From positions 868,001 to 932,000 of the forward strand of contig NZ_CP100351.1 of assembly GCF_024204645.1 (NCBI RefSeq): 64,000 nucleotides of DNA, in the 5' to 3' direction. The notes under the pieces are model-generated. The model did not search any database. It was not told where the DNA came from and saw only the letters and a program-made list of their open reading frames with translations. Positions within the stretch are counted from its first letter, which is position 1. Each line of letters opens with the position of its first letter. The stretch comes from Desulfomicrobium sp. ZS1 (GTDB taxonomy: Bacteria; Desulfobacterota; Desulfovibrionia; Desulfovibrionales; Desulfomicrobiaceae). Positions 36,135 to 60,458 of the stretch are shown one piece after another. The position numbers were made by a program, and so were the translations under genes.

Positions 36135-36432
36135 GAAGGTAGGGGTCCTGCGAAATATCAATGAAGAAATGGTATTGGAGTTGCGTCATCCCCGCGAAGG
36201 CGGGGATCCATCCCATTGTTTTTTTTTTAGAGTCTTCATTCTCTGTTGATCAGCACCCCTATGAAGCCAAAACGTCGGCACCCTAATGGAGCCAGTTCAT
36301 CGGCACCCTTAATGGAGCCACTTGGTGTGCACCCCTAATGGAGCCACCTTGATTTTGAGAGAGCCATAAAAACACTTCGCTCGGACTTCCTCACCGCCTA
36401 TCCCGGACCTCCTGAAACACAAGGAGGAAGGG

Positions 36433-38731: not shown

Positions 38732-38822
38732 ACACATAACTAGACGAGGTCGTCCGAGCGAAAATCTCTCACTTTTGCTGGCTTCATTAGGGTGCCGATC
38801 GGTGGCTCCATTAGGGTGCTGA

Positions 38823-39194
38823 TCAACATTCTTCCAGGGCGACGTAGTTTTTCGCCTCAAAGCGCGGGGTGCAGATGGCCAGGAAGATGAGGTCGCAGGC
38901 GCTGGTGCAGGTGATGCGCTGTCTGCAACCGGCGGGAATGACGACCACGTCGCCGGGGGCTACGCTTTGCGGCGGCAGGTCGCCGATTTCCACCAGCCCC
39001 GTTCCTTCAAGGATCACGTAGCGCTCCAGCGTATCGCGCAGGGCGTGCCAGACCGTGGTGCGTCCCGGTTCGACCCGGGCGCGGGCCAGGGACGCGGCCG
39101 GGTCATGGTCGCCGTTGGAGAGTTCGGTGATGAAGCACCCTTCCCGGAAGTGGTATTCGCTCTTTGGATTGAGCTTCAGAATGCACGGCTGCAT
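38823..39194 (-). CDS. Cupin domain protein, 3' end replaced by IS21
   Basis: A 123-residue single cupin barrel: VEPGRTTVWHALRDTLERYVILEGTG and PPQSVAPGDVVVIPAG carry the two cupin motifs. Metal ligands (His in VWHAL, Glu in LERYVIL) are mostly present. The last codons TGT TGA lie inside the IS21 terminal repeat, so the original C terminus, probably only a few residues, has been replaced. It starts 2 bp after the CHAP-like lipoprotein gene. Confidence 0.82.
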   Translation of the reverse strand: MQPCILKLNPKSEYHFREGCFITELSNGDHDPAASLARARVEPGRTTVWHALRDTLERYVILEGTGLVEIGDLPPQSVAPGDVVVIPAGCRQRITCTSACDLIFLAICTPRFEAKNYVALEEC

Positions 39195-44984: not shown

Positions 44985-46667
<1,683 letters not shown>

Positions 46668-46678
46668 CATAACGTGAT

Positions 46679-46714
46679 GAACCCGGCCCGGAATAATTCG
46701 GCCCGGGTTCTTTT
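46679..46714 (+). terminator. Intrinsic terminator after ettA
   Basis: GAACCCGGCCCG pairs with CGGCCCGGGTTC with one internal mismatch around GAATAATT, followed by TTTT. Confidence 0.75.
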
Positions 46715-46783
46715 CAATTGTGGCGGGTAGTGGTATTTATGTGAACCAGTGATGGCATACTCAATTTTGTCCATGAGGAGAAC

Positions 46784-47239
46784 ATGATGAATACACAAAG
46801 TCTTGCCTGTAAAGTGCTCGTGCCTGCATATGGCATCATTGTGGCCGGCAGTATTTTCGAAAATCTGCTCCTTGGCACTGACTGGTTTTTGCTCGGTTCG
46901 GTGATCGGATTTTTATGGCTGGCGGCGGGCTTGGTCGGTCTGACGCTGGCCGTGCGCGAGTTGAGAAAAAGCGAGGGCTACATGCTGGTCGAGTCCGGTC
47001 CCTTCGCCTGGAGCCGCAACCCGATCCTGGCCGCCAATCTGCTTGGCATAATGCCTGGGCTTTGCTTGGTCCTGAACACCAATGTGGGGATTCTGGGCAT
47101 TGCTGTCGGAATTTTTCTTTTTTCCAAAAACGTCGGCGCCGAAGAATTGGAACTCGAAGACCAGTTCGGCGAGATTTATCAGGCTTACCGCGAACGGGTC
47201 AGCCGTCTGCTCCCCCTTCCATCCTGTCTGGAAAATTGA
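46784..47239 (+). CDS. Isoprenylcysteine methyltransferase-like membrane protein
   Basis: A 151-residue integral membrane protein of the ICMT/phospholipid methyltransferase type. It has about four helices and the C-terminal signature GPFAWSRNPILAANLLG and EELELEDQFGEIYQAYRERVSRLLP. The SAM-dependent methyl acceptor is unknown. GAGGAG is just upstream of two consecutive ATG codons (46784 and 46787). Confidence 0.82.
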   Translation: MMNTQSLACKVLVPAYGIIVAGSIFENLLLGTDWFLLGSVIGFLWLAAGLVGLTLAVRELRKSEGYMLVESGPFAWSRNPILAANLLGIMPGLCLVLNTNVGILGIAVGIFLFSKNVGAEELELEDQFGEIYQAYRERVSRLLPLPSCLEN

Positions 47240-47254
47240 TCCCTGCACGATGAC

Positions 47255-47280
47255 GGCAGCCTTCGGGTTGCCTTTTTTTT
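47255..47280 (+). terminator. Intrinsic terminator after the methyltransferase gene
   Basis: GGCAGCC and GGTTGCC pair (one G-T) over TTCG and lead into eight T. Confidence 0.8.
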
Positions 47281-47309
47281 AAAGAAAAAAGCGCCCGTGT
47301 GGGGCGCTT
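47281..47309 (-). terminator. Intrinsic terminator after the lipoprotein gene (minus strand)
   Basis: AAGCGCCC and GGGCGCTT pair over a short loop and are followed on the minus strand by a six-T run. It serves the leftward lipoprotein gene, back to back with the terminator of the rightward methyltransferase gene. Confidence 0.75.
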
Positions 47310-47334
47310 CGTCAGGATCATGTCTGCTTTTTTT

Positions 47335-48210
47335 TCAGTAAGATAGAACCAACTGCATTGTGCTGATCCTCTGGATCTGTTTTCCGTATTCCCTGATTTC
47401 CTGCAGGTCATAGCTGTCGTCCTGAACTGCGGATGCGACATGCGCATTGGCTTTTTGCAAAATGGCCATGGCCTCATGAATCCGTGCGCCTATGGCGTGG
47501 ACGCGGATGCGAGATTCCTGCGCCAGCACGTAAGCTTTCACCGCCTCTTTCCTTTCGAGCAGGGTGTACGTGTCTTGGGTGTCGATAAAGGCCGAGGAGA
47601 TGATCTCAAGTTTCATGGCCGTGTCTGCATAGGTTTGCAAATAGCTGGTTGAAGATTCGTCCAGGGAAAAATCGGCCAGCAGTCTGTTTGTAAGAGACGT
47701 TATGGAATCCGCAAAGGCCAGCACAATACCCTTGATGGTTTCGGACTTTCTGCGTGCTGTCCACGAGGCATCAAGCCCCAGCGTGACGTTTTGCACGACT
47801 TCTTCCTGGGCGCGGGTCAGTTCCGGCCCCAATGTCTCGGTGATGTTGTCCAGGAAAACTCGTGCTGACCTGCGTACCATCTCGGTGCGATCGTCCGCTG
47901 CAAGACGTATGAGCAGGTCGCCGTACATGCGCAGCGATTTGCAAGCGGCAACCCGCATGGCCGTTGTTTCGGCAAGGGCCGACTCGTCGTAGGCCCAGTT
48001 GTCTGTATTTTTCGATCTGTCGAGAAGCACGAGCAACGAGTTCATTTCGATGACTTCGCTACGCATGGAGAGAAACTCGGATTCGCTCATGCGCCCGACC
48101 CTCTCCGTGGCTAGGCCGAAGCTCTCCATGGCGTTGCGTTGTGTCGCGTTCGTGGCGCAACCGGAAAGGAATGCGCAAACAGTGATGCACGCGATCAGTA
48201 TATATTTCAT
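47335..48210 (-). CDS. Lipoprotein of unknown function, mostly helical
   Basis: A 291-residue lipoprotein with a clear lipobox (AFLSGC, Cys18). The rest is predicted helical, with long heptad-like stretches such as ESEFLSMRSEVIEMNSLLVL and VVQNVTLGLDASWTARRKSE. No family is recognised. The ATG at 48210 (MKYILIACI) has AAGGGA upstream; the frame extends 7 codons further. Confidence 0.7.
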   Translation of the reverse strand: MKYILIACITVCAFLSGCATNATQRNAMESFGLATERVGRMSESEFLSMRSEVIEMNSLLVLLDRSKNTDNWAYDESALAETTAMRVAACKSLRMYGDLLIRLAADDRTEMVRRSARVFLDNITETLGPELTRAQEEVVQNVTLGLDASWTARRKSETIKGIVLAFADSITSLTNRLLADFSLDESSTSYLQTYADTAMKLEIISSAFIDTQDTYTLLERKEAVKAYVLAQESRIRVHAIGARIHEAMAILQKANAHVASAVQDDSYDLQEIREYGKQIQRISTMQLVLSY

Positions 48211-48705
48211 GTTACGATCCCTTGAGCGCAAAGGCTGTCTTTAAAGGCATAATTTGCCAGATAAACAGCAATTCATTTATACATGCGGTATGCGTTTGAA
48301 TCAAGAGGGTTTTCAAAATAAATGTTGTCATACATTTTTTTATGGTCTGAATTTGATTGAAGATGTCTTTGAGCTTATATCAATGACATGCTCGGATTAT
48401 TTGCATGCAGCGGTACAAGTTTCATGATTTTATGGGATGTGGACGGGTGATATATTCGTATTACAGATGGAACTTTAAAAAGTTGTCATCCCCTTGAAGA
48501 AGGGGATCCATCCCTTATTAACTATCTGAAAGCAATGGATTTCACGCGAAGCCTGACATGGCCCGCCTTCGCGGGAATGACGCGCGTACTCTCTCGCGTC
48601 TTTTTGCAGTGGCCTCATTACATAGCGCATGAAACTGGTGCCGAATGTAGATTCTGCGATGGAAGTCACGGTTGGGCTTCGCGTGACGTGACGAAAAGCC
48701 CGCGA
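48211..48705. other. Intergenic region with repeat copy B
   Basis: About 495 bp. Apart from the 97-bp repeat at 48485-48581, the left half is AT-rich and should contain the lipoprotein promoter. No gene was seen. Confidence 0.5.
48485..48581 (-). repeat. 97-bp dispersed repeat, copy B (inverted relative to copy A)
   Basis: The reverse complement begins GTCATTCCCGCGAAGGCGGG and is identical to copy A for 48 bp, then diverges in the middle and matches again at the end. Copies A and B form inverted repeats around the ettA-methyltransferase-lipoprotein segment. Confidence 0.85.
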
Positions 48706-49428
48706 TCAGGTTTCAATGATGAATTGCACACGCTCGGACGCAAAGCGTGTTTCGCAGAACTCTATGGGCCATTCTCTGGGATCGACGTTGATGCTTTCCG
48801 TGACCAGTACCGGCCGGGTTTTGGGCTGGCGCAGCATGCGGGCCTCTCTGGCCGTGGGCAGGCGGCTTGAGATGTGCGTGCTTTTGCGGCGGTAGTCCAT
48901 GACCCCGTAATGGCGTAGCGCCTGTGTCACGGAGCCGGTCTCTCGGAAACGATCATCCAGGCCCGGAAAGCGGGCTTGGGGAAAATGAGCGCTGGCCAGG
49001 CAGATGCGCACTCCGTCGGCCTCGCCGAGGGTTTCGAGCACGATGACGGGTTCGCCTTTCTCCAACTCCAGCGCCCTGGCAACCTCAGTCGTGGCAAGGA
49101 TGACGCCGGACGAGACAAGCTCCCCTCGCGGTTTTCGTTCCTGGCGAAGCAGGTTCTCGTGGAAGCGGGTGCGCGCGCCCACCGCATAGTCGATGACCTG
49201 TTCGCGCACGAAGCTGCCGCTGCCCTGTTCCGTGCGAATCAGCTCCTTTTCCGCGAGCAGGGTCAGCGCCCGTCGCACCGTATGGCGGTTGACCCCGAAG
49301 CGCTCGGCCAGTTCTAACTCCGTGGGCAGCTTGCTGCCGGGCGGAAGTTCGCCCTCCTTGATCTTGAACTCCAGCCAATCCTGAATCTGCCGCCACAGGG
49401 CCACCCCGTTTCTGCGCTGTAACTCCAT
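48706..49428 (-). CDS. phnF: Phosphonate utilisation transcriptional regulator PhnF (GntR/UTRA)
   Basis: A 240-residue GntR/HutC-family regulator. The N-terminal winged helix contains LPTELELAERFGVNRHTVRR, and the C-terminal UTRA ligand domain includes ETLGEADGVRICLASAHFP. GGGAGG precedes the ATG. It is divergent from phnG across 102 bp that contain an operator-like palindrome; it probably represses the phn operons until a phosphonate or phosphate-linked signal binds. Confidence 0.9.
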   Translation of the reverse strand: MELQRRNGVALWRQIQDWLEFKIKEGELPPGSKLPTELELAERFGVNRHTVRRALTLLAEKELIRTEQGSGSFVREQVIDYAVGARTRFHENLLRQERKPRGELVSSGVILATTEVARALELEKGEPVIVLETLGEADGVRICLASAHFPQARFPGLDDRFRETGSVTQALRHYGVMDYRRKSTHISSRLPTAREARMLRQPKTRPVLVTESINVDPREWPIEFCETRFASERVQFIIET

Positions 49429-49485
49429 CGCCGCCTCCCCGAATGCAAATTGTCACATAATGCTGAGACTTCAGTCCCAGTCGAA

Positions 49486-49507
49486 AGACATAGATGTCTA
49501 TACAAAT
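49486..49507. promoter_or_regulatory. Candidate PhnF operator between phnF and phnG
   Basis: AGACATAGATGTCT (49486-49499) is a perfect palindrome, and the overlapping TGTCTATACAA (49495-49505) matches the GTCTAKACAA sequence upstream of phnC (63255-63264) in all ten positions. Mycobacterial PhnF is known to bind TGGTATAGACCA, the reverse complement of TGGTCTATACCA, which shares the GTCTATAC core. Confidence 0.5.
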
Positions 49508-49530
49508 TTTCATATTGTGGAGTTTTCGTG

Positions 49531-49980
49531 ATGTCAACTGAAGAGACAACGAGGCAGGAGTGGATGGCCGCCCTGGCCCTGGCTCCGGAAGTCCGCTTGC
49601 GGGAAGCCTGGGACAGTCTGGACGCGCAGCCGCGCTACAAACTCGTGCGCGGGCCGGAAACGGGGCTGGTCATGGTCCGGGCTCGGACCGGCAACAACGG
49701 GGAGCGCTTCAACCTGGGCGAGATGAGCGTGACCCGCTGCACGGTGGCCCTGGACCACGGGGTCATGGGGCACGCCTTCATCGGCGGACTTTGCCATGAG
49801 CACGCCCGTCTGGCGGCGGTGTTCGACGCCTTGCTGCAACTTCCTGAAAGGGGCGAGGAGCTGTGCCGCACGCTGATCGATCCGTTGCAACGGGAACGGC
49901 AGACGCATTTGGCCAGGCGGCAGGACGAAGTGCATCCGAGCAGGGTCGATTTCTTCACCCTGGTGCGGGGGGACGAATGA
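49531..49980 (+). CDS. phnG: Carbon-phosphorus lyase complex subunit PhnG
   Basis: A 149-residue subunit of the PhnGHIJ core that cleaves the C-P bond after ribosylation. MVRARTGNNGERFNLGEMSV and CTVALDHGVMGHAFIGG are family signatures. The ATG at 49531 has GGAG 8 bases upstream. First gene of the rightward operon; its stop overlaps phnH. Confidence 0.93.
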   Translation: MSTEETTRQEWMAALALAPEVRLREAWDSLDAQPRYKLVRGPETGLVMVRARTGNNGERFNLGEMSVTRCTVALDHGVMGHAFIGGLCHEHARLAAVFDALLQLPERGEELCRTLIDPLQRERQTHLARRQDEVHPSRVDFFTLVRGDE

Positions 49981-50585
49981 TGCTGCAATCCATCCCCGCC
50001 GGTTTTGCCCGCCCGGTTTTTGAAAGTCAGGGCACGTTCCGCGCCATTCTTGATGCCATGTCGCGCCCGGGCAGAGTCGTGCCGCTTCCCGTTCAGGCCG
50101 AAGGACCGCGTGGTTGGAGCGGGGGCATGGCCTCCGTGGTCCTGACCCTGTGCGACATGGACACCCCGGTCTGGCTCGATGCTCAGACAGCCACCGACGA
50201 CGCCCGGCGTTTTCTGCGTTTTCACTGCGCATGTCCGCTGATCGACGAACCGGCAAAAGCTTCCTTCGCCGTGGTCATGAACCACGCGCTCATGCCGTCC
50301 ATGGACGCGTTTTCACTGGGCAGCGCCGAGTATCCCGAAAATTCGACCACCGTGCTGCTGGCCACGGACTTTGATGCCACCCCGGGCGAAAGCATCAGCG
50401 TCACGGGGCCGGGAGTGGACGGCCAGGAACGCCTGCCCCTTTCCTGGCTTCCTCCCGGGTTCGTCACCGCCTGGCGCGGTAACTGCCGTCTTTTTCCCCG
50501 GGGCGTGGACCTGATCCTTGTCAGCCAGGCCCACGTCGTGGGCTTGCCCCGGACCCTTCAAATGGAGGACCGGTCATGTATGTAG
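49977..50585 (+). CDS. phnH: Carbon-phosphorus lyase complex subunit PhnH
   Basis: A 202-residue PLP-transferase-like fold subunit without PLP. GFARPVFESQGTFRAILDAM, DTPVWLDAQT and GAEYPENSTTVLLATDF-like sequence are present. The ATG at 49977 overlaps phnG (ATGA); an extra ATG follows directly. Confidence 0.92.
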   Translation: MMLQSIPAGFARPVFESQGTFRAILDAMSRPGRVVPLPVQAEGPRGWSGGMASVVLTLCDMDTPVWLDAQTATDDARRFLRFHCACPLIDEPAKASFAVVMNHALMPSMDAFSLGSAEYPENSTTVLLATDFDATPGESISVTGPGVDGQERLPLSWLPPGFVTAWRGNCRLFPRGVDLILVSQAHVVGLPRTLQMEDRSCM

Positions 50586-51718
50586 CTGTCAAGGGCGGCG
50601 AGAAGGCCATTGCCTCCGCGCACAAGTTGCTGGCCCGTGAGCGGCGCGGCGACGAATCAGTGCCGGAAATTTCCCTGGAACAGATCCGCGAGCAGCTGTC
50701 TTTGTCCGTGGACCGGGTCATGAGCGAAGGCTCCCTCTACGACCCGCACCTTGCGGCCCTGGCCGTGAAGCAGGCGAGGGGCGACCTGATGGAGGCCATT
50801 TTTCTGCTGCGCGCCTACCGCACGACCTTGCCGCGCTTTGGCTACGCCCTGCCCGTGGACACGTCACGGATGCATGTTCGCCGCCGCATTTCCGCGACAT
50901 TCAAGGATGTTCCGGGAGGCCAGGTGCTCGGGCCGACCTTCGACTACACGCATCGTTTGCTTGATTGGGGCCTGGCCGGGGCACAGGAGCAGGAGGGTGG
51001 AGCCTCCGCGCCGACGGAGATCGACGAAGCGATCACCACGCCTGGCACGCCTGGCACGCCTGGCACGCGCGGCACGCCCGGCACGCCGGACATGCCGCGC
51101 GTGCTCGATGTGCTTGGCCGCGAAGGCATCATCGAATCCGAAGGCCGGGGCGACGATTCCGAACCGGGCGACTTGACCCGTCATCCCTTGACCTTGCCCG
51201 CCGGGCGCTCCATGCGCCTGCAGAATCTGGCCCGTGCCGACGAGGGATTTCTGCTGGCCATGGGCTATTCCACCCAGCGTGGCTTCGGCAATTCCCACCC
51301 TTTTGTTGGGGAAATCCGTATGGGCGAGGTGGAAATCGAGTTTGTGCCCGAGGAACTGGGGTTTCCCGTGACCATCGGCGAGATCACCCTGACCGAGTGC
51401 GAGACTGTGAACCAGTTCATCGGCTCCGGCGACGCCCGCTTCACGCGCGGCTACGGCCTGACCTTTGGTCAGGGCGAACGCAAGGCCATGAGCATGGCCC
51501 TGGTGGACAGGTCGCTTCGCGCCGGGGAGCTGGGCGAGGAGGTGCGCGGCCCGGCCCAGGATCAGGAATTTGTCCTCTATCACAGCGACAACGTCGAAGC
51601 CTCGGGCTTTGTGCAGCATCTGAAGCTGCCGCATTACGTCGATTTCCAGTCCGAACTGGCCCTGGTGCGCGGACTGCGTAAGGACGCCGCAGGTAAGGAG
51701 GAATCTCATGAACGCTGA
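50576..51718 (+). CDS. phnI: Carbon-phosphorus lyase complex subunit PhnI, with Thr-Pro-Gly insert
   Basis: A 380-residue subunit (E. coli about 354) that with PhnG/H/L links the phosphonate to the ribose of ATP. Family motifs: MYVAVKGGEKAIASAHKLL, SEGSLYDPHLAALAVKQARG and DEGFLLAMGYSTQRGFGNSH. At about residues 155-171 it carries TTPGTPGTPGTRGTPGTPD, a collagen-like run encoded by tandem 9-bp ACGCCTGGC units (51038-51087) absent from the family. Confidence 0.92.
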   Translation: MYVAVKGGEKAIASAHKLLARERRGDESVPEISLEQIREQLSLSVDRVMSEGSLYDPHLAALAVKQARGDLMEAIFLLRAYRTTLPRFGYALPVDTSRMHVRRRISATFKDVPGGQVLGPTFDYTHRLLDWGLAGAQEQEGGASAPTEIDEAITTPGTPGTPGTRGTPGTPDMPRVLDVLGREGIIESEGRGDDSEPGDLTRHPLTLPAGRSMRLQNLARADEGFLLAMGYSTQRGFGNSHPFVGEIRMGEVEIEFVPEELGFPVTIGEITLTECETVNQFIGSGDARFTRGYGLTFGQGERKAMSMALVDRSLRAGELGEEVRGPAQDQEFVLYHSDNVEASGFVQHLKLPHYVDFQSELALVRGLRKDAAGKEESHER

Positions 51719-52562
51719 AGCCATGCCCGGTTACAACTATGCCTATCTGGACGAGCAGACCAAGGGCATGATCCGCCGTGCCATTTTGAAAGCCGTGGCC
51801 ATCCCCGGCTATCAGGTTCCCTTCGGTAGCCGCGAGATGCCCCTGCCTTACGGCTGGGGTACCGGCGGCATTCAGATCACGGCCGGCATCATCGGGCCGG
51901 ACGACGTCCTGAAAGTCATCGACCAGGGCGCCGACGACACGACCAACGCGGTTTCCATCCGTTCCTTTTTCGCCAGGACGGCGCAGGTGGCCACGACCAC
52001 AGTCACGGAAGAAGCCACCGTCATCCAGACCCGGCACCGTATCCCGGAAGCGCCACTCAAACCCGGCCAGATCCTCGTCTATCAGGTGCCCATCCCCGAA
52101 CCCCTGCGCTTCATGGAGCCGAGTGAATCCGAGACACGGACCATGCACGCCCTGGAGGAATACGGGGTCATGCATGTCAAGCTCTATGAGGACATAGCCG
52201 TGCATGGTCGTATCGCCACCAGCTACAACTATCCCGTCAAGGTCGAGGATCGCTATATCATGTGTCCGTCCCCCATCCCCAAATTCGACAACCCCAAAAT
52301 GGACGACTGTCCGGCCTTGCAGCTTTTCGGCGCGGGCCGCGAAAAACGCATCTATGCCATCCCGCCCCACACCAGGGTGAGGAGCCTGGATTTCGAGGAC
52401 CATCCCTTCGAGATCCAGTCCTGGGACGAGGCCTGCGCCATCTGCGGATCGCGGGACAGTTTTTTAGATGAGATTATCACCGACGACCGGGGCGGACGCT
52501 TGTTCGTCTGCTCGGATTCGGATTATTGCGCACGGCGCGTGCGCGGGCAGGAGGATAAGTGA
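51708..52562 (+). CDS. phnJ: Carbon-phosphorus lyase, PhnJ (radical SAM)
   Basis: A 284-residue radical SAM enzyme that breaks the C-P bond of ribosyl phosphonate. The late cysteines ACAICGSRDSF and FVCSDSDYCARR are the cluster and radical sites of this unusual C-terminal arrangement. VPFGSREMPLPYGWGTGGIQ is another family signature. GGAGG precedes the ATG, which overlaps phnI. Confidence 0.94.
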   Translation: MNAEAMPGYNYAYLDEQTKGMIRRAILKAVAIPGYQVPFGSREMPLPYGWGTGGIQITAGIIGPDDVLKVIDQGADDTTNAVSIRSFFARTAQVATTTVTEEATVIQTRHRIPEAPLKPGQILVYQVPIPEPLRFMEPSESETRTMHALEEYGVMHVKLYEDIAVHGRIATSYNYPVKVEDRYIMCPSPIPKFDNPKMDDCPALQLFGAGREKRIYAIPPHTRVRSLDFEDHPFEIQSWDEACAICGSRDSFLDEIITDDRGGRLFVCSDSDYCARRVRGQEDK

Positions 52563-53335
52563 TGGACGCTGAACTGCTTCGCGTCACGGGATTGACTCGC
52601 TACTACGGAAACCGCGTCGGCTGCCGCGACGTGAATTTCACCCTCTGGCCGGGCGAGGTGCTGGCCATTGTCGGTGAATCGGGTTCGGGCAAGTCCACGC
52701 TGTTGAGTCTTTTGTCCGGACGCCTCATGCCTACCAGGGGAGAGGTGTCCTACCGGGACCGGGATGGACGCTGGCTGTCCCTGGCCGAACTGTCCGAGGC
52801 CGACCGCCGCCGCCTGCAACGCACGGATCTCGGCGTCGTGCACCAGAATCCGCGCGACGGGCTGCGCATGCGCGTCAGCGCCGGAGGCAACATCGGCGAG
52901 CGCCTCATGGCCTTGGGAGATCGCCATTATGGCCGGATTCGCGGGGCGGGCCTGGACTGGATGGAGCGGGTCGAACTGGACCAGGCCCGCATCGACGATC
53001 ATCCCTCGGCCTTTTCCGGCGGCATGCAGCAGCGTTTGCAGATCGCCCGCAACCTGGTCACGGAGCCGCGCCTCATTTTCATGGACGAGCCCACCAGCGG
53101 TCTCGACGTCTCGGTTCAGGCCAGGCTCCTGGACCTCTTGCGCCATCTGGTCTCGTCCCTCGGGCTGGCCGTGGTCCTGGTCACCCACGATCTGGCCGTG
53201 GCCCGCATCCTGGCCCATCGCATGATGGTCATGCGCGGCGGTGAGGTCGTGGAAACGGGCCTGTCCGATCAGGTCCTGGACGACCCGTGCCACCCCTACA
53301 CCCAGCTTCTGGTCTCATCCATTTTGCAAGCGTGA
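52562..53335 (+). CDS. phnK: Phosphonate C-P lyase system ATP-binding protein PhnK
   Basis: A 257-residue ABC ATPase without a transmembrane partner that docks on the PhnGHIJ core. Walker A is [15 protein letters not shown], signature FSGGMQQRLQIARNL, Walker B LIFMDEPTSGLDV. The ATG at 52562 has GGAGG 7 bases upstream and is adjacent to a GTG in the same frame. Confidence 0.92.
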   Translation: MDAELLRVTGLTRYYGNRVGCRDVNFTLWPGEVLAIVGESGSGKSTLLSLLSGRLMPTRGEVSYRDRDGRWLSLAELSEADRRRLQRTDLGVVHQNPRDGLRMRVSAGGNIGERLMALGDRHYGRIRGAGLDWMERVELDQARIDDHPSAFSGGMQQRLQIARNLVTEPRLIFMDEPTSGLDVSVQARLLDLLRHLVSSLGLAVVLVTHDLAVARILAHRMMVMRGGEVVETGLSDQVLDDPCHPYTQLLVSSILQA

Positions 53336-53342
53336 GGCATCC

Positions 53343-54035
53343 ATGAATGTTCCCATGATTTCTATACGTTCCCTGGCCAAGACCTTTGTCCTGCACACCC
53401 AGGGCGGGACATGCATCCGCGCCTTCGACGGCGTGGATCTCGACGTCGCGGCCGGGGAGTGCGTCGCCCTGCACGGCCCCTCCGGCGCGGGCAAGTCGAG
53501 CCTGCTGCGCTCCATCTACGCCAACTACCGGCCCACAACGGGCAGCGTCGTCGTCAGCCATGACGGAGGCGGCGTGGACATGACTGTGGCCCAGCCCCGG
53601 ACGGTTCTCGACGTGCGCCGCCGCACCCTTGGCTATGTGAGCCAGTTCCTGCGCGTCATCCCCCGCGTCTCCTCCCTCGATCTGGTGGCCGAGCGTCTCG
53701 CCGCCATGGGCGTGGACCTGGACCAAGCCAGGGACAGGGCCGGGCGGATGCTGGACCGCCTGAACATCCCCGAGCGTCTGTGGTCCCTGGCCCCGGCGAC
53801 CTTCTCGGGCGGGGAGCAGCAGCGCGTCAACATCGCGCGCGGCTTCATCCGTGACTATCCAATCCTGCTCCTCGACGAGCCCACGGCCTCCCTGGACGGA
53901 GAGAACCGCAGCACCGTCGTGGACATGATCCTCGAAGCCAAGAAACGCGGCGCGGCAGTGGTGGGCATTTTTCACGACGACGACGTACGCGGGCGGGTCG
54001 CCGACCGCTGCCTGCTGCTGAACAGGCCGGAGTAA
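53343..54035 (+). CDS. phnL: Phosphonate C-P lyase system protein PhnL
   Basis: A 230-residue ABC-type ATPase. Walker A is LHGPSGAGKSSLLRSIYANY, signature FSGGEQQRVNIARGF, Walker B ILLLDEPTASLD. PhnL supports the ribosylation step and stabilises the core. The ATG at 53343 follows phnK by 7 bp. Confidence 0.92.
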   Translation: MNVPMISIRSLAKTFVLHTQGGTCIRAFDGVDLDVAAGECVALHGPSGAGKSSLLRSIYANYRPTTGSVVVSHDGGGVDMTVAQPRTVLDVRRRTLGYVSQFLRVIPRVSSLDLVAERLAAMGVDLDQARDRAGRMLDRLNIPERLWSLAPATFSGGEQQRVNIARGFIRDYPILLLDEPTASLDGENRSTVVDMILEAKKRGAAVVGIFHDDDVRGRVADRCLLLNRPE

Positions 54036-54038
54036 GCC

Positions 54039-55181
54039 ATGAGTGAAATGATCCTTGCCAACGCCCGCATCGTCCTTGAGGGCGAGACAGTCCTGGGCGC
54101 CGTGAGCGTGCGTGACGGCCTGATCCACGATGTCTCCCCCAGCGCGTTCGCTTGTCCGAACGCCGTCGATCTCGGCGGCGACCTGCTCATTCCCGGCCTG
54201 GTCGAACTGCACACCGACAATCTCGAAAAGCTGCTCCTGCCCCGGCCCGGCGTGCTCTGGCCCTCGGCCCGGGCCGCGCTTCTGGCTCACGACGCGCAGC
54301 TTGTCTCCGCCGGGATCACTACCGTTCTCGACGCCCTGTCATGTGGGCAATACTACGAGAAAAGCGACCGTCGGGCCATGCTCGACCTGACCTTGACCGC
54401 CCTGCATGAGCTGCGGCCCACCGGACATCTCCGCGCCGAGCATTTTCTGCACGTGCGCTGCGAAATCTCCGATCCCGACATGCCGCGCCTCTTCGAACCC
54501 TTTCGCGACATGGACGACGTGCACCTTGTCTCGCTCATGGACCACACCCCCGGGCAGCGGCAGTTTGTCGACACGGACGCCTATCGCACGTATTACAGCA
54601 AGGACCGGCAATGGTCGGACCAGGAATTCGAGGCCGAATTGACCCGCATGCAGGAGGCGCAGAGGCGTTTCGCCGGAGCACACGCCGAGGACATCCTGCG
54701 CTGGTGCCGGACTCGCGGCGTGCCCGTGGCCAGCCACGACGACGCCACGACCGGTCACGTGGACTGGGCCCACGGCCAGGGCATCGTCATCAGCGAATTT
54801 CCGACCACCATGGACGCCGCGCGCCGCGCCTGCGAACTTGGGCTTTTGACCCTCATGGGCTCGCCCAACGTGGTCCGAAACGGCTCCCACTCCGGCAACG
54901 TGTCCGTGCGTGAGGTGGCCAAGGCTGGACTCCTGGGCGGCCTGTCCTCGGATTACGTGCCCGCGAGCCTGCTGCACGCAGCCTGGATCCTGCACGCCGA
55001 AGTCGGTTTGCCCCTGCACGAGTCCATGGCCCTAGTCACACTCAATCCGGCCCGAACCCTGGGCCTGTACGACCGGGGCCGCATCCACCCCGGCCTTAAA
55101 GCCGACCTCGTGCGCGTCCACATCGACCGCGACCTGCCGGTGGTGCGCCGGGTCTGGCGGGATGGGGTGCGGGTGTATTAA
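54039..55181 (+). CDS. phnM: Alpha-D-ribose 1-methylphosphonate 5-triphosphate diphosphatase PhnM (copy 1)
   Basis: A 380-residue amidohydrolase-fold enzyme that releases diphosphate from the ribosyl phosphonate triphosphate. Metal-site pieces: IPGLVELHTDNLEK, LMDHTPGQRQF, VASHDDATT, SSDYVPASLLHAAW. GGAG precedes the ATG. A distinct homologue is at 59322-60458. It ends 10 bp before a tandem repeat array. Confidence 0.94.
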   Translation: MSEMILANARIVLEGETVLGAVSVRDGLIHDVSPSAFACPNAVDLGGDLLIPGLVELHTDNLEKLLLPRPGVLWPSARAALLAHDAQLVSAGITTVLDALSCGQYYEKSDRRAMLDLTLTALHELRPTGHLRAEHFLHVRCEISDPDMPRLFEPFRDMDDVHLVSLMDHTPGQRQFVDTDAYRTYYSKDRQWSDQEFEAELTRMQEAQRRFAGAHAEDILRWCRTRGVPVASHDDATTGHVDWAHGQGIVISEFPTTMDAARRACELGLLTLMGSPNVVRNGSHSGNVSVREVAKAGLLGGLSSDYVPASLLHAAWILHAEVGLPLHESMALVTLNPARTLGLYDRGRIHPGLKADLVRVHIDRDLPVVRRVWRDGVRVY

Positions 55182-55190
55182 CGGTGAAAC

Positions 55191-56357
55191 GGATTTCGGG
55201 GACGACACACCGTAGGGGCGAAAAATTTTTCGCCCCTACACGGAATCACGAAAATTTTCCGCCAATAATGACCACGGCGGAACCCCGTAGGGGCAGGCCT
55301 ACGTGCCTGCCCAATTTTCGGCGCACGGCCAGGATGACCGCATAGGGCCGGAAGAAGGGGCGGTTACGTGGGGCAGGAAGAAGGGCGGCCACGTAGGGTC
55401 GCCCCTACGATGTCGATATCATGGCGTTGATCCGGTACCGGAATCCGGGGCGACACGTTGTAGGGGCGAAAAATTTTTCGCCCCTACACGGAATCACGAA
55501 AATTTTCCGCCAATAATGACCACGGCGGAACCCCGTAGGGGCAGGCCTACGTGCCTGCCCAATTTTCGGCGCACGACCAGGATGACCGCATGGGGCCGGA
55601 AGAAGGGCGGCCACGTGGGGCAGGAAGAAGGGTGGCCACGTAGGGCCGCCCCTACGATGTCGATATCATGGCGTTGATCTGGTACCGGAATCCGGGGCGA
55701 CACGTTGTAGGGGCGAAAAATTTTTCGCCCCAACCCATGGAATCACGAAAATTTTCCGCCAACACCGACCACGGCGGAACCTCGTAGGGGCAGACCTACG
55801 TGTCTGCCCAATTTTTCGCGCACGGCCAGGATGACCGCATAGGGCCGGAGAGAAGGGGCGGTTACGTGGGGCAGGAAGAAGGGCGGCCACGTAGGGCCGC
55901 CCCTACGATGTCGATATCATGGCGTTGATCCGGTACCGGAATCCGGGGCGATACACCGTAGGGGCGAAAAATTTTTCGCCCCAACCCATGGAATCACGAA
56001 AATTTTCCGCCAACACCGACCACGGCGGAACGCCCGTAGGGGCAGACCTACGTGTCTGCCCAATTTTCCGCGCACGGCCAGGATGACCGCATAGGGCCGG
56101 AAGAAGGGCGGCCACGTAGGGCCGCCCCTACGATGTCGATATCATGGCGTTGATCCGGTACCGGAATCCGGGGCGACACGTTGTAGGGGCGAAAAATTTT
56201 TCGCCCCTACACGGAATTACGAAAATTTTCCGCCAACACCGACCACGGCGGAACCTCGTAGGGGCAGACCTACGTGTCTGCCCAATTTTTCGCGCACGGC
56301 CAGGATGACCGCATAGGGCCGGAGAGAAGGGCGGCCACGTAGGGCCGCCCCTACGGA
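55191..56357. repeat. Five-copy tandem array of about 225-250-bp hairpin-rich repeats
   Basis: Units begin near 55191, 55442, 55689, 55940 and 56165. Each holds the palindrome GTAGGGGCGAAAAA/TTTTTCGCCCCTAC (or a variant), a GTAGGGGCAGGCCTACGTGC-type hairpin, a linker starting CGCACG and a facing GTAGGGGCGGCCCTACGTGG-type hairpin, then CGATATCATGGCGTTGATC and GGTACC. Short open frames in it mirror the repeat and are not genes. It interrupts the phn operon between phnM and phnN. Confidence 0.88.
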
Positions 56358-56398
56358 TAACATGGGAAAATTTTTTATTATTTTGCAACAGGATTCTT

Positions 56399-56953
56399 AT
56401 GTCAAAACTGATCTACATCATGGGGCCTTCAGGCTCCGGCAAGGACTCTCTCATGGGCGAGGCCCGTCTACGGCTTGCCGCCGAAGCGCCTGTCGCCTTC
56501 GCGCATCGTTATATCTCCCGCCCGGCCGATGCGGGGGGGGAAAATCATGTCGCTCTGAGCCGGGCCGAATTTCAGCTTCGTTTGTCACGCGGCCTTTTCG
56601 CCCTGTCCTGGGAAAGTCACGGTTTCGCTTACGGCATCGGCCGCGAGATAGACATCTGGATGGAGGCGGGACTCAGCGTGATCGTGAACGGCTCGCGCGA
56701 GGCGTTGCCCGAAGCGCTCAAGGCCTACCCGGATCTGCTGCCCGTGCTGATCGATGTGCCTGAGCACATTTTACGGGAGCGGTTGGGCGCGCGCGGGCGG
56801 GAAAATGCCGGGGAAATCGAGGCCCGGCTGGTGCGGGCGCGTTTGTCCGTGATCGAAACGCCTGGCCTGGTGCGCTTCGACAACTCAGGCCCTTTGGCCG
56901 AACGGGGCCAGGCCCTGGCCGAGCTTATTCTTGAAACAGCCCTGTCCTCCTGA
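56399..56953 (+). CDS. phnN: Ribose 1,5-bisphosphate phosphokinase PhnN
   Basis: A 184-residue guanylate-kinase-like enzyme that makes PRPP from ribose 1,5-bisphosphate. P-loop [33 protein letters not shown] and [20 protein letters not shown] match the family. AGGA precedes the ATG. First gene after the repeat array, so it relies on read-through or a promoter in the array. Confidence 0.9.
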
Positions 56954-56958
56954 AAACC

Positions 56959-57570
56959 ATGACCATGCTCTCCTCCGAACCAACCATCCACCCCACGGCC
57001 ATGGTCGTCGATAGCACCCTTGGCGCTTGGACCGAGATCGGCCCACAGACGGAGATAATTTCCTCCACCATAGGCGACTATTCCTACCTCTGCGATCGCT
57101 GTCACGTCATGTATACGCAGGTCGGCAAGTTCTGCTCCATCGCCAATCACGCCCGCCTGAATCCGAGCAACCACCCGACTTGGCGGGCCACCCAGCACCA
57201 CTTCACCTATCGCAGTTCCAAATTCGGCATGGGGCCGGATGAAGACGAATTCTTCGCCTGGCGCAAGGAACATGGCGTAGTGCTTGGGCATGACGTCTGG
57301 ATCGGGCACGGAGCCCTGATCATGCCCGGTGTGACCGTGGGCACGGGGTCGGTGGTGGCTTCGGGCGCGGTGGTCACCAAGGATGTGCCGGACTACGCCA
57401 TCGTGGCCGGAGTCCCGGCCAAGCCCATCAAGTATCGCTTCCCAAGCGAAATTCAGGAAAAACTCCTGGCCCTGGCCTGGTGGGACTGGGAACACGGGCG
57501 GCTTGCGGCGGCGCTGAATGATTTTCGCGAGATGGGGGTGGGGGCGTTTGTGGAGAAATACGCAGGATGA
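56959..57570 (+). CDS. Phosphonate-locus hexapeptide transferase
   Basis: A 203-residue left-handed beta-helix acyltransferase of the phosphonate-associated type (TIGR03308-like). Hexapeptide repeats run from [19 protein letters not shown] through [20 protein letters not shown] and [11 protein letters not shown], with the CoA-site loop in between. Substrate unknown; family members are placed in phn operons. It starts 5 bp after phnN. Confidence 0.82.
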
Positions 57571-57627
57571 GGGGACGGTGCGGGCAAGTGATGAGATGAC
57601 ATCCGAGGCATGCACGTTGTGCGCTGG

Positions 57628-57657
57628 TTGACAATAATGTATATTGTGGTAATATAC
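57628..57657 (+). promoter_or_regulatory. Promoter and overlapping palindrome of the BrnT module
   Basis: TTGACA (57628-57633) and TAATAT (57650-57655) are 16 bp apart. A perfect inverted repeat GTATATT-GTGGT-AATATAC (57639-57657) covers the -10 element, which suits autorepression by the toxin-antitoxin complex. The predicted transcription start falls at or within a few bases of the brnT ATG (57662). Confidence 0.6.
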
Positions 57658-57661
57658 AAAT

Positions 57662-57973
57662 ATGATTGATTTGGCACAGGTAGAAGGCTTTGACTGGGAC
57701 GAAGGCAATGCGCGTAAAAACGCGGAAAAACACGGTGTCTGTCAGTCTGAAACGGAGCAGATTTTCTTTAATGAACCTTTGCTGGTGCTGGAAGACTGTA
57801 AGCACAGTCAAAGCGAAGCTCCCTACCATGCCCTTGGCGTAACCGATGATGCGCGTTTGTTGCACATCACCTTTACATTGAGGGGTGCCGGTGTCCTGAT
57901 CCGGGTGATTTCCGCCCGTGATATGCAGCGTAAAGAGAAGGCAGTTTATGAGCAGATTAAAAGAGATGCCTGA
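57662..57973 (+). CDS. brnT: BrnT family type II toxin
   Basis: A 103-residue RelE-like ribonuclease toxin. FDWDEGNARKNAEKHGV at residues 10-26 and the C-terminal RVISARDMQRKEKAVYEQIK are the BrnT signatures. No Shine-Dalgarno sequence precedes the ATG. It overlaps the downstream antitoxin gene. Confidence 0.88.
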   Translation: MIDLAQVEGFDWDEGNARKNAEKHGVCQSETEQIFFNEPLLVLEDCKHSQSEAPYHALGVTDDARLLHITFTLRGAGVLIRVISARDMQRKEKAVYEQIKRDA

Positions 57974-58223
57974 ATTCAAAACCGAGGCGGAGGAAAGAGA
58001 ATTCTGGGAAAGCCATGATTCCACCGATTACGTGGACTGGCGTCTGGCCCGGCCAGTTTTTCTTCCGAACCTAAAGCCCTCAACCAAAACGATATCGTTA
58101 CGTTTGCCGGAAGCGTTGCTTGACCGTATCAAAATTGAGGCGAACAAACGCGACATGCCGTATCAGTCGCTTATAAAGGCTTGGCTTGCAGAAGACGTGG
58201 ATGAAAGCCGCCGCGTGAGATAA
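57948..58223 (+). CDS. BrnA/CopG-like antitoxin
   Basis: A 91-residue partner of BrnT. MPEFKTEAEEREFWESHDST and NLKPSTKTISLRLPEALLDR, then ANKRDMPYQSLIKAWLAED, give a neutralising N-terminal region and a ribbon-helix-helix DNA-binding domain. The ATG at 57948 lies inside brnT (26 bp overlap), so both are translationally linked. Likely represses the palindromic promoter at 57639. Confidence 0.85.
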   Translation: MSRLKEMPEFKTEAEEREFWESHDSTDYVDWRLARPVFLPNLKPSTKTISLRLPEALLDRIKIEANKRDMPYQSLIKAWLAEDVDESRRVR

Positions 58224-58364
58224 GCCTCGAACGACATCAGCAACCCCGCGATTTATCTTCGTCCCATTCTTTTGATCTTCAGCACGAACGTGTGGCACGC
58301 AAGTTTTTCATTTTTTGCGTGTGTCTTTCGCATGCAAGCCTTTTTCCCTTCGGTCGATTTCAAA

Positions 58365-58413
58365 AAAAACTATGGCTGCGATGAGTTCGCTCAACTTGCT
58401 GAATCCATAGTTT
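58365..58413 (-). terminator. Terminator of the phnC-DUF1045 operon (minus strand)
   Basis: AAACTATGG (minus: CCATAGTTT) at 58367-58375 and CCATAGTTT at 58405-58413 pair around a 29-base loop that can itself fold; on the minus strand the stem runs into eight T. It lies 100 bp beyond the DUF1045 stop. Confidence 0.55.
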
Positions 58414-58514
58414 CGTGGATCAAAATCAATCCCGACCGTTTTCATCGGACGTACGCAAGCGCAAACGCCACGGAGGACAAACCGTGTGACCGACATTGTC
58501 AAGAAATGTCTGTT

Positions 58515-59219
58515 TCAGGTTTTCTGGACGAGGGTGATCCGTTTCAGGATGGTGAAGGGCTTTTCCGGGCATGTCTGACGAAACACGCAGATCTCCCGCA
58601 CCGGGACGGGCCTGTGCAGTACGGGGGCGAGGAGGGGGGTGAGGGCGGCGTGGATGCGTTCCCGTTCTTCGGGGTCGTGGATGCTGCCGGTCAGGGTCAG
58701 GTGGAAGCGCATTTCTTCCAGTACGTAGGGGTATCCCCAAAGGTTGAGCAGGCGCTCCTGGTTCGGGGTCAGGCCCTTGGCGCGGCGGCGGGCGAGTTCC
58801 TCTGGCCGGGGAGGGCGTCTCAAGCGGTCCGGGACCGTGACGCAGATGCGGGCCAGGTCTTCCAGGTCAGGGCACGGCGCGGTCAGGGTCAGGGCGAGGA
58901 AGGAGCCGATGCGTGCAAGCTCAAGTCCGGGTAGGTCGAATGATCGTATCTTTGAGGCGATCATGGCCGTGTTTTCCAGCAATTCCGTTTTATCATGCTG
59001 CTCGGCCAGAAAGAAGGGCGGCTTCAAGGTGGCGTGCAGCCCGTAGTGCCTGGGCGAGGCGGTCAGCTCGGCCAATCGCGCGGGCTCGATGCCCGGGATG
59101 GCCGGTTGCTTCAGGGCAGCTCCCGTGCGTGCGCAGCGGCCCAGGATGGCCGAGCAGACGCTTTCGAGTTCGGATCCTTCAGGCGGCGCGAAATATATGG
59201 CGTAGCGTGCTTCGGACAT
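58515..59219 (-). CDS. Phosphonate metabolism 2H phosphoesterase (DUF1045)
   Basis: A 234-residue protein of the Phn-operon DUF1045 family (TIGR03223-like). The paired HxT motifs GLHATLKPPF and RFHLTLTGSI mark the 2H phosphoesterase fold. It may hydrolyse a cyclic ribose phosphate, the job done elsewhere by PhnP, which is absent here; this is an inference. Start ATG at 59219 (a GTG two codons upstream is possible). Last gene of the leftward phn operon. Confidence 0.85.
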   Translation of the reverse strand: MSEARYAIYFAPPEGSELESVCSAILGRCARTGAALKQPAIPGIEPARLAELTASPRHYGLHATLKPPFFLAEQHDKTELLENTAMIASKIRSFDLPGLELARIGSFLALTLTAPCPDLEDLARICVTVPDRLRRPPRPEELARRRAKGLTPNQERLLNLWGYPYVLEEMRFHLTLTGSIHDPEERERIHAALTPLLAPVLHRPVPVREICVFRQTCPEKPFTILKRITLVQKT

Positions 59220-59321
59220 GTTCACATCATGCGGATCGAGAGTGGTTCGTTATCATGACTTTCCCCAATTGATAGGGTGCAGGGGGCGCGCCCCCTGCCC
59301 GCCGGAGGCATGTCTTCAATA

Positions 59322-60458
59322 TTACATCACCTGTCTGCCTTCACGCCATACTGCGACAACCACGGGCACGTCGTCCACCATGCGCACGCGCAGGAGGTCG
59401 GCGCGTTTGCCGGGGAGCAGTTCGCCCCGGTCGCTCAGGCCCAGGGCGTGGGCCGGATTGGCGGTGACGGTGGCCAGGGCCTTGTGCAGGGGCATGCCCA
59501 GGCGCTGGGCCATGACAAAGGGCGCTTGCAGGAGGCTGGCCGGCATGTAATCGGATGAGAGGATGTCCACCAGTCCGTCGGCGGCCAGGGCCAGGGCCGA
59601 GACGTTGCCCGAGTGGGATTCTCCGCGCACCACGTTGGGAGCGCCGAGGACAGTTGAGAGACCCAGCTCACGAGCCCTGGACGCGGCTTCGCGGGTGGTG
59701 GGGAATTCGGCGATGCCCATGCCCAGGCGCGCCGTCTCTTCCACGTGTTCCACCGTGGTGTCGTCGTGGCTGGCCAGGGGAAGGTCGCGCTCGCGGCACA
59801 GGTTCAGGATCGTTGTCCTGTTTGGCTCGGCATGGCTGGCTTGTACTGCCCGCAGACGGTCGATCTCGGCCAGGAGTTCATCGTCGGTCCATTTTTTGTC
59901 GGCGTGAAAAGAACGGTATTTTTCCAGGTCGCTCCACTGCCGCTGGCCCGGGGTGTGGTCCATGATGGAAACCAGGCGCAGCAGTTCATGGTCCATGACG
60001 GAGGAAAACATCTCCACCACGGCCTTGTCGGCCAGTTCGCAGCGGATGTGCAGCAGGTGCTCGGCGCGCAGCAGGTTGTTATTCCTGGCCAGGGCCAGAG
60101 CTTCCAGGGTGGCTGTGAAAATTTCGCGGCGCATGCGCTTGGCGCTGAATTCTCCCGCGCTGACCGCGTCGAGCACCGTGGTGATTCCGGCTCCGACCAT
60201 GTGCGTGTCGTGGGCCATGATGGCGGTGAGGCTGGTCGGCCAGCGTACGCCGGAGCGGGGCAGGAAGTGCTTTTCGATGTTGTCGGTATGGATCTCGACC
60301 AATCCAGGCAAGAGGTAGTCACCTTTGAAATCGAGGGCTTCGGAACCGGCCGTGTCCGAGTCGATGTCCATTATAAGCCCGTCCTCGGTTCTGAGAGAGC
60401 CGTGAAACACTTCGTCAGGCGTGACCAGACGGGCATTGGTGCAGCAGAGAGATGGCAT
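59322..60458 (-). CDS. phnM: PhnM-type amidohydrolase (copy 2)
   Basis: A 378-residue homologue of PhnM with the same metal motifs: LPGLVEIHTDNIEKH, IMDHTPGQRQWSDLEKY, LASHDDTTVEHV and SSDYMPASLLQAPF. The two copies are clearly divergent and not recent duplicates. It lies 14 bp after phnE and should be transcribed with phnCDE. It may act on a different ribosyl substrate or be redundant. Confidence 0.92.
   Translation of the reverse strand: MPSLCCTNARLVTPDEVFHGSLRTEDGLIMDIDSDTAGSEALDFKGDYLLPGLVEIHTDNIEKHFLPRSGVRWPTSLTAIMAHDTHMVGAGITTVLDAVSAGEFSAKRMRREIFTATLEALALARNNNLLRAEHLLHIRCELADKAVVEMFSSVMDHELLRLVSIMDHTPGQRQWSDLEKYRSFHADKKWTDDELLAEIDRLRAVQASHAEPNRTTILNLCRERDLPLASHDDTTVEHVEETARLGMGIAEFPTTREAASRARELGLSTVLGAPNVVRGESHSGNVSALALAADGLVDILSSDYMPASLLQAPFVMAQRLGMPLHKALATVTANPAHALGLSDRGELLPGKRADLLRVRMVDDVPVVVAVWREGRQVM

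Follow-up and report, generated by a model that had tools for sequence, protein, structure and literature searches.

The window analysed here is a 64,000-nucleotide stretch of a Desulfomicrobium genome (G000) assembled as a single 3.87-Mb contig. Within it lies a C-P lyase (phn) operon that is interrupted by a tandem array of hairpin-forming repeats. The array is preceded by phnM (positions 54039 to 55181 of the window, + strand) and followed by phnN (56399 to 56953, + strand), and the gap between the two genes is 1217 bp. The sequence-only reading had proposed that an array separates phnM from phnN in an otherwise tightly packed operon, and this is confirmed: both genes scored above the cut-off of their NCBIfam models (TIGR02318 and TIGR02322, respectively), and the other gaps among the genes examined were −118 to +5 bp, the −118 bp value depending on an ORF start that was probably set too far upstream. 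NCBIfam also supports phnF, phnG, phnH, phnK, phnL and a hexapeptide transferase gene. The frames presumed from their place to be phnI and phnJ gave no NCBIfam match. A 9-bp tandem repeat (5.7 copies, 51037 to 51087) lies within the presumed phnI frame, and a second phnM-like gene, whose product is 49% identical to PhnM, is found on the opposite strand at 59322–60458.

The array extends from 55212 to 56357 on the + strand and consists of five units, each with the order A, B (a second inverted repeat), C, D and spacer. Five head-to-tail copies of 225–250 bp starting at 55191 had been described; the five tandem units stand, but the fifth is truncated (175 bp) and the array starts at 55212. Unit 1 (55212–55459, 248 bp), unit 2 (55460–55706, 247 bp), unit 3 (55707–55957, 251 bp) and unit 4 (55958–56182, 225 bp) each carry a spacer of ∼50 bp after D, and unit 5 (56183–56357) ends after D, without the D-to-A spacer. 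A ∼25-bp internal stretch found in units 1–3 is missing from units 4 and 5. TRF reported the array as a single row of period 251 with 3.7 copies and 93% matches, spanning 55190–56122.

The A element, a 28-bp palindrome that belongs to both strands, is located at 55212–55239, 55460–55487, 55707–55734, 55958–55985 and 56183–56210. It is perfect in three of the five copies and has one mismatch in those starting at 55707 and 55958, in keeping with the perfect or near-perfect palindrome first noticed. The C element is a GTAG-REP on the + strand (55287–55312, 55535–55560, 55784–55809, 56036–56061 and 56258–56283), and the D element is a reversed GTAG-REP on the − strand (55383–55408, 55630–55655, 55881–55906, 56106–56131 and 56329–56354). 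The GTAGGGGC hairpin is present twice per unit, forward as C and reverse as D; these are the two facing hairpins of the earlier description. The GTAGGGGC motif occurred at 21 sites in the window, 18 of them inside the array, when compared with a mean of 1.18 and a largest value of 4 in 100 shuffles.

Repeats often break assemblies, and in one relative (G006) both contigs stop within the phnM–phnN spacer, so an assembly artefact was considered as the source of the tandem copies. We regard it as very improbable. The five aligned copies differ from each other by ∼3–8%, plus indels, which argues that they are not assembly duplicates; in addition, the contig is unbroken over 3.87 Mb and a one-unit version is present at the same site in D. 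baculatum.

In the A element the GTAG tag stands at both ends of the perfect copies and can pair with CTAC in the palindromic ones; A is a GTAG-REP with a 4-nt loop that can be read from either strand. In C and D, GTAG is followed by an 8-bp stem and a 6-nt loop, with one mispair each in the D stems of units 1 and 2, and together they form an inverted, REPIN-like REP pair in every unit. The folding analysis covered 91 GTAGGGGC sites from 28 loci, 19 of them in G000 and the other 9 at the phn site of relatives, with each palindrome counted once per strand. At 85 of these sites GTAG adjoins a stem in which 7 or all 8 pairs form, closed by a loop of 4 or 6 nt. With no prior filter on pairing, the loop was of 6 nt at 57 sites, of 4 nt at 28 and of neither length at 6. 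The loci used for REP folding and array counts were mostly picked for matching the repeat, and their rates apply to them rather than to whole genomes. As background, 3 of 218 GTAG sites in positions 1–55000 of the window combined a 6-nt loop with 7 or more of the 8 stem pairs; they are members of a single REP cluster (15983–16072), the second of this family in the window.

The background folding was restricted to REPs in which 7 or more of the 8 pairs form; compensatory change was analysed in a less filtered sample of 34 distinct genus REPs, picked by eye among the matches listed, from which G011, G012, G000, G013 and the greater part of G007 are absent. The search pattern fixed the outer four stem pairs only, and the changes were located at pairs 5, 6 and 7. 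In these 34 REPs among the matches listed, 97.8% of the stem cells were paired, two-sided cell changes numbered 38 (shuffled mean 12.1; 0 of 500 shuffles as high), the covariation score was 0.339 (0.119 in shuffles; 0 of 500 as high), and stem pair 7 occurred as AU, CG, GC and UA, all four Watson-Crick types, with no mispair. In the same 34 listed REPs, the number of pairs changed on both sides (3 vs. 2.4 shuffled; 249 of 500) and of further pair types (6 vs. 6.8 shuffled; 490 of 500) was not above chance. Compensatory change in the GTAG REP is thus seen in three of five measures, which were above all 500 shuffles, and not in the other two. No Rfam family matched positions 46000–60000 of the window up to E = 1.

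The units had been likened to dispersed intergenic repeats, and a genome-wide pattern search bears out a dispersed, putatively intergenic family that is tandemly amplified within the operon. The 6-loop pattern gave 19 + 18 matches in G000 vs. 0 + 2 for the reversed control, and the 4-loop pattern gave 9 + 14 exact matches (palindromes counted on both strands). Several REP clusters overlap mechanically called ORFs. The copies in G000 amount to tens, from exact patterns only with degenerate copies left out, below the >100 copies per genome that REPs usually reach (PMC2817692). This does not exclude them from the class, because in the available part of that paper the figure is qualified by "usually" and Table 2 has lower counts. 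Across the order (297 genomes), the exact 24-base A core was present in 11 genomes, namely in 9 of the 16 of the genus and in G017 and G041, which belong to two other genera.

The further claim that tandem amplification is unusual did not hold. In addition to the array described here, TRF (period at least 60; 37 sources, mostly chosen for holding the repeat) detected REP arrays at eleven places, namely the phn site of G004 and ten sites elsewhere in G000, G001, G004, G007 and G012. Copy numbers, that of the present array included, range from about 1.9 to 5.3. Tandem REPIN clusters have also been published. The accessible text of PMC3116915 (Bertels and Rainey 2011) describes 16 of them in P. 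fluorescens SBW25, the largest with four REPINs and >700 bp, and the head-to-tail repetition of REPINs including flanking sequence is the same. When compared with those clusters, the phn array has five units, extends over 1.15 kb, lies within an operon and carries a second REP type (A) in each unit. GTAG REPs, as presented in the sections of PMC3733652 available (Di Nocera et al. 2013), are mostly intergenic and form clusters in which single or dimeric REPs are reiterated together with the DNA next to them; the unpaired GTAG tag, stem-loop size, inverted dimers and tandem clusters are shared with the phn array, although, unlike there, the A copies are palindromic through the tag. The array is therefore a new example of a published class, the tandem REPIN cluster, and not a new system, and it adds the genus Desulfomicrobium to the map of GTAG REPs. 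D. alkenivorans is a sulfate reducer. A species of this name is mentioned in the portion of PMC3733652 available, although the string "Desulfo" is absent from the main text of that paper. The Desulfomicrobium literature, in the portions accessible and with PMC3035215 and PMC12306157 included, did not yield an account of the repeats.

RAYT genes were searched for with two models. PF01797 gave 29 matches in 9 of the 16 genus genomes, and none of the 29 had GTAGGGGC in its locus. The absence of a RAYT link suggested by this result was overturned by NF047646, which matched 42 places in 12 of the 16 genomes and revealed divergent RAYT-like genes among the REPs. With NF047646 or a search with the G007 protein, RAYT-like genes having GTAG REPs in or beside them were found in 8 of the 16 genomes (G000, G001, G002, G006, G007, G009, G012 and G013), and all eight score below the NF047646 cut-off of 80 bits. 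A REP-linked RAYT was present in 7 of 8 REP-rich genomes vs. 1 of the 8 others (Fisher two-sided 0.010, uncorrected for kinship), where REP-rich means at least 5 strand hits of the exact A core, a cut set after the data had been seen. The exception is G004, which is REP-rich and had no REP-linked RAYT at E ≤ 1e-20. RAYTs have HUH and tyrosine catalytic motifs, and the corresponding sequences, PNHVH or PNHIH and YIxxNP, were recognized in six of six genus RAYT frames, which are putatively catalytic.

A REP was found inside the unbroken RAYT frame in six of the eight genus genes. An in-frame GTAG REP or REP pair is carried by the RAYT-like genes of G000 (G000:C1:2432224-2432910, L146) and of G002, G012, G007, G013 and G009 (loci L203, L201, L205, L206 and L209). 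In G000, G002 and G012 the REPs are of the 6-loop type and lie both within the frame and beyond it, the frames of G007 and G013 have one 4-loop REP inside and one at the stop, and that of G009 has two 4-loop REPs inside. In G006 the gene is split over two frames with a REP within the second, and in G001 both loop types occur outside the gene and no REP inside. REP subtype and RAYT thus mostly match, 4-loop REPs going with the G007 and G013 type and 6-loop REPs with the G000, G002 and G012 type. In a tree of seven genus RAYTs the last three group together (100/100), and the G001 protein is not firmly placed with those of G007 and G013. Since G000 has only a 6-loop-type RAYT at the thresholds used, its A copies are orphans.

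With the G007 frame as protein query, relatives were obtained in 15 of the 297 genomes at E ≤ 1e-20, 8 of them in the genus. In the seven other genomes, all ten RAYT loci (two of which overlap) had GTAGGGG-type hairpins in or beside the gene. The hairpins were within the frame at eight of the ten loci (L216, L227, L217, L224, L225, L226, L230 and L233), which belong to five of the seven genomes (G053 twice, G045 three times, and G024, G070 and G036), and in G017 and G021 they were found only beside the frame or at its edge. The REP sequence at these loci varies by genome. In G045, a genome in another family, 6-loop REPs also accompany two RAYT frames that look alike by eye.

An origin of the repeats as MITE-like elements of some other transposon, rather than as RAYT-tied REPs, would suit the perfect palindrome in three of the five A copies and the lack of a PF01797 gene near GTAGGGGC. 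We consider it unlikely in view of the RAYT-model genes that lie among the REPs, mostly with matching subtype, both within and outside the genus, and of the agreement of the GTAG tag and stem with published GTAG REPs. These data favour, with a probability that we put at ∼0.82, a view of the phn array as a REPIN/BIME cluster in which GTAG-tagged REPs of two RAYT-linked subtypes were tandemly amplified in this lineage. It is a hybrid of both subtypes, and from their linkage the A (4-nt loop) and C/D (6-nt loop) REPs were probably spread by two cognate RAYTs.

The RAYT genes flanked by REPs and the hybrid BIMEs with REPs of two RAYTs have counterparts in PMC2817692 (Nunvar et al. 2010), which also gives four cases of BIMEs enclosing the 3′ end of a rayt gene. 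The present RAYT genes differ in that most of those examined hold a REP or REP pair in frame, a feature not found in the available text of that paper. A wider and tentative reading, which we hold to be rather improbable as a whole, is that in the Desulfovibrionales a RAYT gene would contain its own target, with the REP or REP pair placed in frame a short way downstream of the HUH motif; that the gene itself, because it holds its target, would be a source of the element, with gene and REP changing together; and that two RAYT lineages of different loop specificity would have co-built hybrid tandem arrays such as the phn array, in which phnN output would be set by how many hairpins there are. The occurrence of REPs within RAYT genes merits a separate study, and the match between loop type and RAYT type makes REP recognition testable.

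To place the tandemly amplified REP cluster among its relatives, the phnM–phnN region was compared in 16 genus genomes, one per species, and was matched in ten. The spacer measured 1217 bp in G000, 329 bp in G002 (D. baculatum), 368 bp in G007 (a MAG), 267 bp in G012, 679 bp in G004, 143 bp in G013 and 68 bp in G003. REP elements were present at the junction in eight of the ten matching genomes (G000, G001, G002, G004, G006, G007, G012 and G013), and the 68-bp spacer of G003 contained no REP. G002 and G007 have a single unit each, with the order A-B-C-D-spacer-A′, G013 has a lone A palindrome adjoining phnN, and the REPs of G012 are C, D and a further C; those of G004 and G001 are mixed in other ways, again with A beside phnN. 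The five-unit state was found in G000 only, among the genomes compared, and the number of units differs between species. Outside the genus, the median phnM–phnN gap was 34 bp over 52 loci, with two gaps >200 bp; these are the 52 of 77 loci at which phnN follows phnM on one strand at a distance of <1500 bp.

In G001 (L136, G001:C22:26900-31500) phnF to phnM are gone from the site except for the phnM tail, and the order is a lipoprotein-like gene, the tail of phnM, the cluster of REPs, phnN and the beginning of the hexapeptide gene, with ∼612 bp of REP-bearing DNA from the stop of the phnM tail to phnN (654 bp when the tail is counted). The G007 junction (L137, G007:C131) is a mosaic: the phnM tail (93 nt) is nearest to G003 (97%), the REP unit resembles the units of G000 and G002, and phnN is nearest to G002 in its first 60 nt (98%) and, from about nt 121, to G003 in nearly all windows, which could reflect either interspecies exchange or a chimeric MAG contig. 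In G015 only a phnM-like protein with 48% identity was found, and it is taken to be the second phnM.

Because G002, G007, G013, G004 and G001 all have A beside phnN, this position of A looks old. The comparison suggests that REPs entered the phnM–phnN gap in an ancestor shared by several Desulfomicrobium species, and that the starting point may have been a single unit with A at each end, as in D. baculatum today. Since the relatives show one unit, one palindrome or none, the array probably grew in the G000 lineage. The passage from one to five units would be most simply explained by unequal recombination, or by replication slippage, between direct A copies, and we infer that unequal recombination is the simplest route. 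The terminal A, to judge from the junctions, would have been lost later. One idea is that the ends of D and A′ recombined and A′ was thereby removed, as the short homology CCCTACG in A′ of D. baculatum may suggest.

With gaps disregarded, the aligned G000 units are 91.9–97.3% identical to each other and share 90.8–95.9% identity with the G002 and G007 units, and phnN is 88.1% identical between G000 and G002. In the unit tree, the G002 and G007 units fall between units 1–2 and units 3–5, with weak local support (0.67–0.97). Because units 1–2 and 3–5 form two groups around them, growth does not appear to have been one simple burst, and this grouping indicates that exchange or old variants may have contributed. 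The series from none to one palindrome, one unit and five units illustrates how tandem REP clusters may grow.

If transcribed, the array would be predicted to fold into strong hairpins: unit 1 has a predicted fold of −115.6 kcal/mol (z = −4.67; 0 of 200 shuffles as stable), and 909 nt of the array gave z = −10.05 (20 shuffles). Such folding indicates that hairpins can form, not that they act. The hairpins could form a 3′ barrier for the phnG–M mRNA and lower phnN expression, so that phnN might be attenuated or the mRNA upstream of the array stabilised, two effects raised by the sequence-only reading, and a role of the array in phn expression is a fair hypothesis. Sites resembling terminators (4 vs. 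2.4, sd 1.6, in shuffles) were not above chance, and promoter-like sites were at chance level.

These folds bear on whether the array is a selected regulatory device, in which the hairpins would protect the phnG–M mRNA from 3′ decay and/or terminate transcription early, keep the level of PhnN below that of the C-P lyase core and let copy number tune the ratio. Besides the stable folds of unit 1 and of the 909 nt, the presence of REPs at the junction in eight of the ten matching genomes points in this direction, as does a precedent from E. coli, where intercistronic hairpins guard the upstream mRNA (PMC5927463, in the part available). The malE–malF junction described there likewise has strong hairpins between genes of an operon, and a likeness in working with the predicted phn hairpins is possible. 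Against such a device, the REP-free spacer of G003 and the single palindrome of G013 argue that it would be dispensable, terminator-like sites are not enriched, similar arrays occur at other loci, and G001 retains the REP cluster and phnN although phnM has been lost there save for its tail. We therefore view the device as doubtful. In the preferred reading, that of an amplified REP cluster, any effect on expression is regarded as a by-product and not as the reason for the array. The junctions of the different species are natural constructs with which to ask whether the number of hairpins between two genes alters their relative expression. Elsewhere in the window, two tandem repeats 2.4 kb apart (36253–36346 and 38779–38824) have in common a 17-base reverse-complement stretch in their units.
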